From Prolixibacteraceae bacterium (GTDB lineage: Bacteria; Bacteroidota; Bacteroidia; Bacteroidales; Prolixibacteraceae), in NCBI GenBank assembly GCA_025210775.1, contig JAOARB010000018.1, positions 1 to 64,000 on the forward strand: 64,000 bases of DNA, in the 5' to 3' direction. Below the pieces are notes generated by a model. That model saw nothing but the letters and a program-made list of their open reading frames with translations, made no database searches and was not told the origin of the DNA. Below are positions 26,023-28,952 of the stretch, piece by piece (position 1 is the stretch's first letter; every line of letters starts with the position of its first letter). Both the position numbers and the translations under genes were made by a program.

Positions 26023-27336
26023 CTAATTTAAAAGATTATCTGAAATCGCTTGTAATGCTCTTTTTTTATCTTTGGTGTCGATCAAAATAGATATGTTATG
26101 ATCACTACCACCATATGAGATCATTCTTACAGGAATGTCTCCTAAAGCATCAAATACTTGCATTGCTAGTCCTTTTGAACTTGAAATCATATCTCCAACA
26201 ATACAAACAATAGAGTGGTCTGTGTCGATCTCTACATCTCCATATTCTTTTAACTCCATTACGATAGAATCCAGGTTCTTAGGATTGTCTATCGTTACAG
26301 ATACTGCCACCTCTGAAGTGGTGATCATGTCGATAGGAGTCTTAAAGAACTCAAATATCTCAAATATGTTTTTAAGGAAACCGTAGGCATTAAGCATACG
26401 TCCCGAACGAATTTTTACTGCTGTAATTCCATCTTTGGCAGCCACCGCTTTTAGACCAGCATTGTCTGACTGGCTAGTGATGATCGTTCCTGGATCGTTA
26501 CGATTCATCGTATTTTTTAGCCTTACAGGGATATTGGCCAATTTCGCTGGAAGTACCGTTTGTGGATGCAATATCTTGGCACCAAAATAAGCAAGCTCTG
26601 CCGCTTCATCAAAAGAGAGCATGTCTACTTTCTTGGTGTTTTCAACTACTCTAGGGTCATTGTTATGGAACCCATCGATATCTGTCCATATCTGAATCTC
26701 TTCTGCTTTGATGGCAGCTCCAATAAGCGAAGCCGAATAATCCGATCCTCCTCTTTGAAGGTTGTCGATCTCGTCATCACTGTTTAAACAGATATATCCT
26801 TGTGTAATATAGTAATCAGCCGAGGCATTCTCCTCAAGTAGTTTACCAATGTTTTTCTCAATATAGAATTGGTCCGCCGACTTATCACTGTCGATTTTCA
26901 TAAAATCAAGAGCCGATAGAAGGGTAGACTTATGTCCCTCTTGAATCAATAGCAAGTTGAAAAGATTGGATGAAATAATCTCTCCTTGTGCTAATATATT
27001 TTTCTCTCCATTCTCTGTAAACTCTCCCGAAGTAAAAGATTTGATTGTATCAAAACAATCCTCTACAATCATAAAAGCACGCTCTATGATCTCTTCCGAA
27101 TGGTATAGTTCTCTAATCGTCTGATAGTACTGTTTCTCTAACTTACTGATGACAAAACGTGCAGAATCCTTGTTTTTTTTGGCAAGATAATCTGCAATTT
27201 CCACAAGTGTATTGGTGGTACCAGACATTGCAGAAAGAACTACTAACTTTTTATTTCCATCGGTAACAATATCCATTACCGTCTTCATGTTTTCTACTGA
27301 TCCAACAGAAGTTCCTCCAAATTTCAATACTTTCAT
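26023..27336 (-). CDS. lysC: Aspartate kinase
   Basis: Phosphorylates aspartate, the committed step to lysine, threonine and methionine. The ATG at 27336 is used (MKVLKFGGTSVGS) because the upstream alternative is a TTG three codons earlier. The catalytic domain fills roughly residues 1-285 (RGGSDYSASLIGAA, WTDIDGFHNNDPR), and two ACT regulatory domains follow to residue 437, which in the family mediate amino-acid feedback inhibition. It is the monofunctional form, not fused to homoserine dehydrogenase. I see no lysine riboswitch upstream. Confidence 0.95.
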   Translation of the reverse strand: MKVLKFGGTSVGSVENMKTVMDIVTDGNKKLVVLSAMSGTTNTLVEIADYLAKKNKDSARFVISKLEKQYYQTIRELYHSEEIIERAFMIVEDCFDTIKSFTSGEFTENGEKNILAQGEIISSNLFNLLLIQEGHKSTLLSALDFMKIDSDKSADQFYIEKNIGKLLEENASADYYITQGYICLNSDDEIDNLQRGGSDYSASLIGAAIKAEEIQIWTDIDGFHNNDPRVVENTKKVDMLSFDEAAELAYFGAKILHPQTVLPAKLANIPVRLKNTMNRNDPGTIITSQSDNAGLKAVAAKDGITAVKIRSGRMLNAYGFLKNIFEIFEFFKTPIDMITTSEVAVSVTIDNPKNLDSIVMELKEYGDVEIDTDHSIVCIVGDMISSSKGLAMQVFDALGDIPVRMISYGGSDHNISILIDTKDKKRALQAISDNLLN

Positions 27337-28350
27337 TTGCCTCAAAAGTTATAATTTACAATTACTACCCTCTACCATATTTTGAGATCATAAGTGAGTG
27401 ATAGTTTCTTTACAAATTGGTGATAAATAATCAAATACGATAGTATTTAGACCATAAAATAGAGTGTTGCTTTCAATTTGAAAGTTATTATTAAAACCTC
27501 ATATTTAGGTGTTAATGAGCTACAAAAATAAGAAAATAATGATTTAATGCAGTAAATTTAAATGATAAAATATGGAATATTCTGAAAAATGTAAGCAATA
27601 GAGGGGTAAACTGATTGATTTATTAGTTTTTAACGATTGTGCTTTTGAATTGAAATATATTTGTCCTGATCAGTGGTAATATTTAAATTAAATTTGCTTT
27701 TTGACAGTTTTTTATTGTTTAACGCTCTTTTATGTAAATATTACACTTCTTTTCCCCTCACCGAACTTGTTTTTTGTAGCCCATCGTTATCATAATGATA
27801 ATGAACCGATTCTTTCTGCAAATCTTCTCTTTTTCTTCTTGATAGATCCGATTCTCTCTTAAAAACGGTCCCTAAAAAGCAACAAACAAAGAAGATTCTC
27901 TATTCCTTTCTATTTCGATTATTAAAAACAGCGATATTCCAATGAATGTCAAACTCTAAGAGAATAAAATATAAAGATCGTATTAAGAGGTGCCTCTGAT
28001 TTTATATAAATAAAAGGGGTGAATCGTCATCAGCTTATTCACGTACGATATCTGTATCGATTCCCATAGATCAAATAGGGGGTTCGTCCATGGTTCGTCC
28101 ATGGTTTGTCCATGGTTTGTCCATGGTTTGTCCATGGTTCCTCCATGGTTCCTCCATGGTTTGTCCATCGATTTAGGGGTTTTCGATGGAGGAACCATGG
28201 ACAAACCATGAAGGAACCATGGAGAAAGTACCTTTAATCCCATCTTTTGACTCATTGAATATTGTGGTGGTTTAGGGGATATTAAATGAGGAGACGTTGT
28301 CTAAAAAAGTGTGAAAATGGCTTATTTATCTATTTTGAGAGAAGTAGACA
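27337..28350. other. One-kilobase gene-poor region upstream of lysC
   Basis: This stretch is unusually long for a compact chromosome. I find no convincing gene. A minus-strand open frame at 27983-28255 is made of the translated 11-bp repeats and is not considered real. It contains a 15-bp palindrome-like TTATCATAATGATAA at 27787-27801, a possible -7 element for lysC (CAAAAATA at 27523-27530, plus-strand reading), and the repeat array at 28088-28222. Confidence 0.55.
28088..28222. repeat. Array of 11-bp CCATGG repeats folding back as a hairpin
   Basis: CCATGG (once CCATCG) recurs at 28088, 28099, 28110, 28121, 28132, 28143, 28154 and 28165, an exact 11-bp period. The unit is TCCATGGTTyS, with variants ending TTTG, TTCG or TTCC. 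After a short turn (28171-28183) the units resume in inverted orientation at 28184, 28195, 28206 and 28217, again 11 bp apart. Positions 28132-28170 are nearly the reverse complement of 28184-28222, so either strand can form a stem of about 39 bp with a few mismatches and a 13-nt loop. It is not a CRISPR: there are no spacers. Confidence 0.9.
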
Positions 28351-28393
28351 ATAAAAAAAGCGCTCTCTTTGGTATAAAGAGAGCGCTTTTTTA
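28351..28393 (-). terminator. Terminator of the isochorismatase-like gene
   Basis: A 16-bp perfect inverted repeat (AAAAAAGCGCTCTCTT / AAGAGAGCGCTTTTTT) lies 17 nt after the stop on the minus strand. Confidence 0.9.
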
Positions 28394-28409
28394 TGATGTA
28401 ATAATATTA

Positions 28410-28952
28410 TTATTTGATCAATTTCGAGATGGTTCTAAAAGCAGGATTTTTAGCTGATCCTGTTAGTTCGAAAAGGATAGATTCGTAAGTTGCCAAGGTG
28501 ATTCCTTCTGCTTCGAATCTACGTAGAGCGATCTTTTTGTTTAGTTTGGTTCTAGAGTCAACAGCATCAACAATGATGATTGGATTGTATCCAGCCTCTT
28601 TAAGATCGATGGCTGTTTGAAGAACACAGATATGAGATTCGATACCCGAGATGATGACGTTTTTTACCTGATTTGCATTTAAGAAGCTTTTACACATCTC
28701 GTGACCGAAACAGCTAAATTCTGTCTTATCGAAAGATTGAAAATCATCAACAAGATCTTGTATTTCAGTGATCGTATTTCCTAATCCTTGAGGATATTGT
28801 TGTGAAAAGATTGTAGGAACACCAAGTTCTTTTAATCCAGAGATTAGAATCTTATTGGTGCGGATAACCTCTTCAGTATTGTGCATTACAGGAAGCAATT
28901 TTTCTTGTAGATCAACAATGATTGCCGCCGTATTTTCTTTGGAGATTCTCAT
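28410..28952 (-). CDS. Isochorismatase-like cysteine hydrolase
   Basis: A 180-residue single-domain hydrolase of the isochorismatase superfamily (YcaC/nicotinamidase-like). The probable triad is Asp14 (AAIIVDLQEK), a Lys in FDKTEFSCF near residue 77, and the Cys in SGIESHICVLQTA near residue 109. The characteristic cis-peptide region GIESHICV is intact. The substrate cannot be told from sequence; YcaC-type members remain poorly characterised. It is 24 nt downstream of the SIS isomerase and probably in the same operon. Confidence 0.85.
   Translation of the reverse strand: MRISKENTAAIIVDLQEKLLPVMHNTEEVIRTNKILISGLKELGVPTIFSQQYPQGLGNTITEIQDLVDDFQSFDKTEFSCFGHEMCKSFLNANQVKNVIISGIESHICVLQTAIDLKEAGYNPIIIVDAVDSRTKLNKKIALRRFEAEGITLATYESILFELTGSAKNPAFRTISKLIK

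Follow-up and report, generated by a model that had tools for sequence, protein, structure and literature searches.

The array of 11-bp CCATGG units that we studied in the window (the whole analysed stretch of 64,000 nt from a Prolixibacteraceae bacterium) is one member of a dispersed family of short, non-coding hairpins, with at least 53 copies in the genome to which the window belongs (G000; 3.75 Mb, 32 contigs), intergenic, in either orientation and in every kind of gene context. The reading that we favour, with a probability of about 0.65, is that the element is a non-coding, genus-specific, dispersed palindrome of MITE type with minisatellite arms, spread by copies, with a left arm that slips and with interrupted palindromes that survive. 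The family had been missed in the preliminary description because only one window was seen, and it emerged from the search of the genome and its relatives for the unit that this description itself had proposed.

Organization of the window copy

The left array of the window copy has a period of 11 with 8.0 copies and 93% matches by TRF (Table 1). Seven of its units carry CCATGG at exact 11-bp spacing (starts at 28088, 28099, 28110, 28121, 28132, 28143 and 28154) and the eighth, at 28165, reads CCATCG, in agreement with the strict period of the eight units reported earlier. The four inverted units described after the turn are present (in order CGATGG, CCATGG, CCATGA and CCATGG, ending at 28223). 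The predicted giant hairpin is supported as well, with an 11-nt turn instead of 13 nt and with arms of 45 nt at 87% complementarity (28127-28171 and 28183-28227) instead of a stem of about 39 bp. The RNA fold of this copy has an energy of -98.3 kcal/mol compared to -62.9±4.2 for shuffled sequences (z -8.4; z -9.3 on the other strand), and the DNA fold, which adopts one slip with a small side hairpin, is likewise far from its shuffles (z -10.5).

The copy sits in an intergenic gap of about 1.06 kb, from an aspartokinase gene (26023-27345, minus strand) to an isochorismatase-like gene (28410-28952, minus strand), both named from sequence. The possibility that the array is an ordinary coding repeat, raised by the preliminary description, is ruled out, as an 11-nt unit shifts the frame at every unit and the array is intergenic; no ORF of at least 150 aa overlaps any array of the family, by crude ORF calls. 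A search of the window (1-64,000) against Rfam gave no match for the array and three tRNAs only. Three near-identical tRNA-Val(tac) genes stand in tandem at 1-353, with a period of about 130 bp.

Table 1. Features of the hairpin copy and its immediate surroundings in the window
Feature	Position	Strand	Basis
Conserved flank on the left side, consensus ..ATTCCATAGGTCAAATAGGGG	28060..28080	+	Position-by-position conservation, 53 copies
Expandable minisatellite forming the left arm, eight units of 11 bp, GGTTNNTCCAT	28081..28168	+	TRF; 0-8 units across copies
Core TCCATCGATTTAGGGGTTTTCGATGGA, covering the loop of 11 nt and the stem pairs closest to it	28164..28190	+	51 genome-wide matches, 47 exact to pattern
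Right arm, three inverted units past the core, stable arm	28191..28223	-	3 units in 42/53 copies
Right conserved flank, consensus GGAAGTACCTTTNAATCC	28224..28241	+	Conservation across copies
Degenerate IS-end-like motif, consensus ACACACTTTTTCGGACAGTGTC, reverse complement here	28293..28313	-	8/8 near matches inverted around copies
Intrinsic terminator of the isochorismatase-like gene, separate from the element	28354..28392	-	Terminator search

A dispersed family within one genus

A two-unit pattern gave 140 exact matches in G000 and none for the reversed-pattern control, which rules out chance. The core is nearly invariant among copies (TCCATCGATTT[A/G]GGGGTTTTCGATGGA) and its matches are divided between the strands (25 on plus and 26 on minus). 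We oriented 53 cored copies, using fetched stretches of at most 12 kb that contain them; at least two further arrays are devoid of a recognisable core (C14:114120 and C15:127477). Three left and three right units lie beyond the core in 26 of the 53 copies, and conserved flanks reach about 40 bp to the left and 50 bp to the right. In three copies, core and flank are oppositely oriented, and the inner blocks have therefore been inverted. Another AT-rich repeat family (..TAATTATGTCTTCTATA..) was observed in both orientations beside two hairpin copies (L083 and L072).

Among 140 genomes of the family Prolixibacteraceae, representing 23 genera, the two-unit pattern is present in four, all of one genus. 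About 38 copies were found in G076, a single contig in the fetched data, and at least 12 in G074. When about 85,000 species genomes were scanned with a 20-mer, it matched the Prolixibacteraceae isolate AH-541-J21 and contigs of two MAGs, whose copies are 90-98% identical to those of G000; two other loci (L174 and L176) look like chance 20-mer matches, standing alone with no array. One contig found in this way (JAOARM010000030.1, locus L177) is labelled as a Vallitalea MAG and is 97.6% identical to G000 over 547 bp, and is probably a contaminant of that MAG, judging by its sequence. Viral contigs gave no match to the repeat, and a phage origin was rejected on this ground.

Comparison of the 12-kb surroundings indicated that hairpin sites are mostly unshared between species; of 20 copies in G076, no more than one adjoins the same gene as a G000 copy. 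Occupied and empty versions of the same site exist: the genes flanking one G000 copy (L066) are only 107 bp apart in G076, and the aspartokinase gene of G074 is 92% identical to that of the window with no array in its 700 bp upstream. The corresponding stretch upstream of the aspartokinase gene in G076 carries a different hairpin (L209, CTTACCCTTAAGTTACCTTTCCCTTACC...GGTAAGGGAAGGGTAACTTAAGGGTAAG), which points to another hairpin family within the genus. Movement is not fast, since the near relatives G075 and G076 share at least one copy whose flanks identify it as orthologous (L107 and L185).

Unit turnover and periodic mismatches in the arms

Between close relatives, the left arm changes its number of units and the right arm is stable. 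More specifically, the L172/L182 copy is orthologous to L073 of G000 (94% over 624 bp, one gap) with one additional unit in its left array, L173 is orthologous to L072 of G000 with two additional units, and L177 differs from its ortholog L092 (97.6%) in one unit, TTCC to TTCG. These whole-unit differences bear out the replication slippage that had been suggested for the array, slippage being presumably the cause of a gain and loss that is itself seen, and the shuffling of variant units between the arms found support too. In G074, left-arm units are nearly all TTTGT while the right arm has diverged, a pattern that points to homogenisation of one arm.

With each unit written as GGTT x1 x2 TCCAT, arms in register are paired at 9 of its 11 bp and mismatched at the 2-nt centre; in the 26 copies with 3+3 units, paired runs are broken by 2-nt mismatches at positions 1-2, 12-13, 23-24 and 34-35. 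In-register units are identical in 18 of 202 cases, compared to 48±5 after shuffling of units within copies, and in 159 of 202 one arm has G at x2 where the other has C (114±6 expected from the shuffling). When right arms were swapped among the 22 copies with 4+4 units, register 1 excluded, this opposition was found in 53 of 66 own pairs versus 36±3, and when the 19 distinct 4+4-unit types were counted once, in 44 of 57 versus 29±3 (0 of 3000). Consistent with this, G000 arms are less complementary to their own partner than to the arms of other copies (z -5.7), and own arms fold worse than swapped ones (-62.9 vs -67.9 kcal/mol). Arms slipped by one unit match better, because G-class and C-class units alternate along the arm. 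Watson-Crick covariation within subfamilies was not found, and G000 shows the reverse. In G076, mismatches fall at the same phase with different letters, and the two outer-stem subfamilies (TTAATCCGTCC and TTCTCCTACC types) each stay self-complementary (own vs other, z +4).

We consider as tentative, and on balance rather doubtful, the idea that a helix with regular interruptions is preserved in the hairpin, in which selection would keep a 2-nt centre mismatch in every unit (mostly G-G or C-C at one of its two positions) by inverse covariation, a change of class in one arm being followed by a change in the other, and the structure being recognised, or tolerated, only if interrupted once per turn. 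Selection is not proven by these counts, because inversions preserve the opposition and copies are related, and the signal could come from few founders or from the inversions themselves. Structure searches look for compensatory pairing; if the mismatch rule were selected, anti-covariation would be a signal that they miss.

Insertion sequences, alternative explanations and known systems

Several copies are accompanied by ends of insertion sequences. In G000, a motif here named TIRa (GGACTTGTTCATAA) is inverted on the two sides of copies in 13 of 14 near matches, and five copies have it at -88/-89 relative to the left arm, oriented as in an IS; it is found on both sides of L063, L077 and, weakly, L103, and most copies are devoid of it. 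TIRa also heads sequences with ISAs1-like reading frames elsewhere in G000, which look decayed; the assignment to ISAs1 is tentative, as the DDE_Tnp_1_assoc match of one such ORF is below threshold (20.3 bits, cut-off 32.3). Solo TIRa sites in this genome (e.g., L219 and L220) are sequences of about 90-110 bp with TIRa in inverted orientation at the two ends; they probably derive, in miniature form, from an ISAs1-like element. Within the fetched G000 loci, the motif ACACACTTTTTCGGACAGTGTC adjoins a copy eight times and lies elsewhere once, and all four genome-wide matches to a stricter pattern adjoin arrays. G076 carries an IS256-type element (gene at 4370642-4371739), and 18 of 36 places with its ends are within 350 bp of a hairpin (0.18 expected); the outer end faces the hairpin in 14 of 17 cases, so that these ends look like neighbours and not like hairpin termini.

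Recognisable IS-type ends belong to only about 10 of the 53 copies. No clean TIR pair with a target-site duplication was found among the copies, and copies with TIRa on either side showed none of these duplications when inspected; direct repeats between a copy's own flanks are slightly above those with the flanks of other copies (32.1 vs 29.3±0.8). The assignment to the MITEs is provisional, the TIR and target-site features of that class being only partly present. A search for an intact mobilising transposase identified none, and neither a PF00872 nor a PF01797 gene turned up in G000, the latter (Y1 transposase) being found in G074 and G076 only; IS256 was accordingly discarded as mobiliser of the G000 copies.

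Under the favoured MITE-type reading, copies spread to new intergenic sites, as shown by their number, their mostly non-orthologous sites and the empty orthologous site, presumably by transposition in trans by an insertion-sequence transposase, which for some copies may be of ISAs1 type. Each copy would form one long imperfect hairpin, as the predicted fold indicates, whose left arm behaves as a minisatellite gaining and losing whole 11-bp units, presumably via slippage, and whose blocks can flip relative to the flanks, as in three copies. Long perfect palindromes may be purged by hairpin nucleases or by replication failure, leaving the interrupted ones. Hairpin neighbourhoods also gather insertion sequences; the hairpins may attract them, or survive together with them, as REPs do (PMC1525189).

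Other explanations were weighed against this one. Transcribed hairpins might act as terminators, mRNA stabilisers or dsRNA processed by RNase III. Eleven base pairs are one turn of A-form RNA, and mismatches spaced every 11 bp would then fall on one face of a fold that is predicted to be very stable on either strand; stable stem-loops are a known feature of MITE transcripts (PMC10969869). Such a role at the RNA level is nevertheless unlikely considering the gene context: gaps with a hairpin are same-strand in 20 cases, convergent in 7 and divergent in 12, compared to 34, 17 and 29 among other long gaps (p 0.67), by a crude ORF caller in which 11 copies "inside an ORF" probably reflect imperfect minus-strand masking. 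There is thus no bias to convergent or downstream positions, and both orientations relative to genes are equally used. This absence of preference disfavours a dedicated terminator role, and the isochorismatase-like gene has its own intrinsic terminator, a separate stem that is the only terminator-like match in 27300-28450. The Rfam search speaks against an RNA-level role as well.

An array bound by a host protein on each CCATGG palindrome, once per helical turn, organising the chromosome or regulating neighbours, would agree with the strict 11-bp phase and with the near invariance of CCATGG and its flanking bases, variation being mainly in the two centre bases. We regard it as improbable, given a distribution in one genus at mostly unshared positions, arrays that vary from 0 to 8 units, the same lack of gene-context preference and a spacing on the G076 chromosome that is not clearly regular (gap CV 0.80 vs 0.96±0.14 at random). 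About equally improbable is a role as a folded single strand on which a recombinase or an HUH-type enzyme would act, with the mismatched centres as recognition features. attC sites and REP hairpins are substrates of this kind, and the periodic mismatches with their phase conserved in two species with different letters, the opposition at x2 and the three core/flank inversions would suit it, yet no Y1 transposase was detected in G000, and instead of forming cassette arrays the copies are scattered. Draft assemblies can go wrong at repeats, and the preliminary description had named an artefact as an alternative; an error of assembly or binning, of which no positive sign was seen, is here next to inconceivable, given the many independent copies, the dozen to dozens of copies in two single-contig congeners and the orthologous copies in independent assemblies.

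With about 100 related palindromes spread over several related genomes, the family is a natural series in which units are gained and lost, inversions occur and mismatches follow a periodic rule; it would allow tests on how bacteria tolerate long palindromes and on the combination of minisatellite and mobile element.

As for known systems, the element shares with REP/REPIN sequences that they are dispersed extragenic palindromes whose surroundings are targeted by IS elements (PMC1525189), but REPs are 20-40 bp long (PMC3733652), while the hairpin here is about 150 bp with tandem units. Membership of the REPIN/RAYT system is not supported, no Y1 transposase having been detected in G000. QMITE2, Chunjie and Correia/NEMIS are likewise short, non-coding, intergenic and palindromic, with IS-like ends on some copies here; unlike in them, a complete TIR with target-site duplication is not demonstrated in our element. 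To our knowledge, minisatellite arms with periodic mismatches do not figure in their descriptions.

The statement of the preliminary description that the array matches no standard repeat class was too strong, as a MITE or palindromic interspersed repeat with a minisatellite is a kind known in Porphyromonas gingivalis, where the BrickBuilt MITE carries a minisatellite inside a dispersed non-coding element (PMC4596501). BrickBuilt is the nearest described case among open-access papers, the other repeat classes having been compared partly from general knowledge. Both elements belong to Bacteroidota, combine a tandem minisatellite with a dispersed non-coding element in tens of copies that are always intergenic, and have a limited host range, a strain-variable number of units and predicted long stem-loops (PMC4596501). 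The repeats of BrickBuilt are direct and 23 nt long, with no second array in inverted orientation, and its leader and tail contain short TIRs of IS5 type, GAGACC.. (PMC4596501), whereas the element described here has 11-nt units, unrelated in sequence by eye, in two inverted arms around a conserved core.
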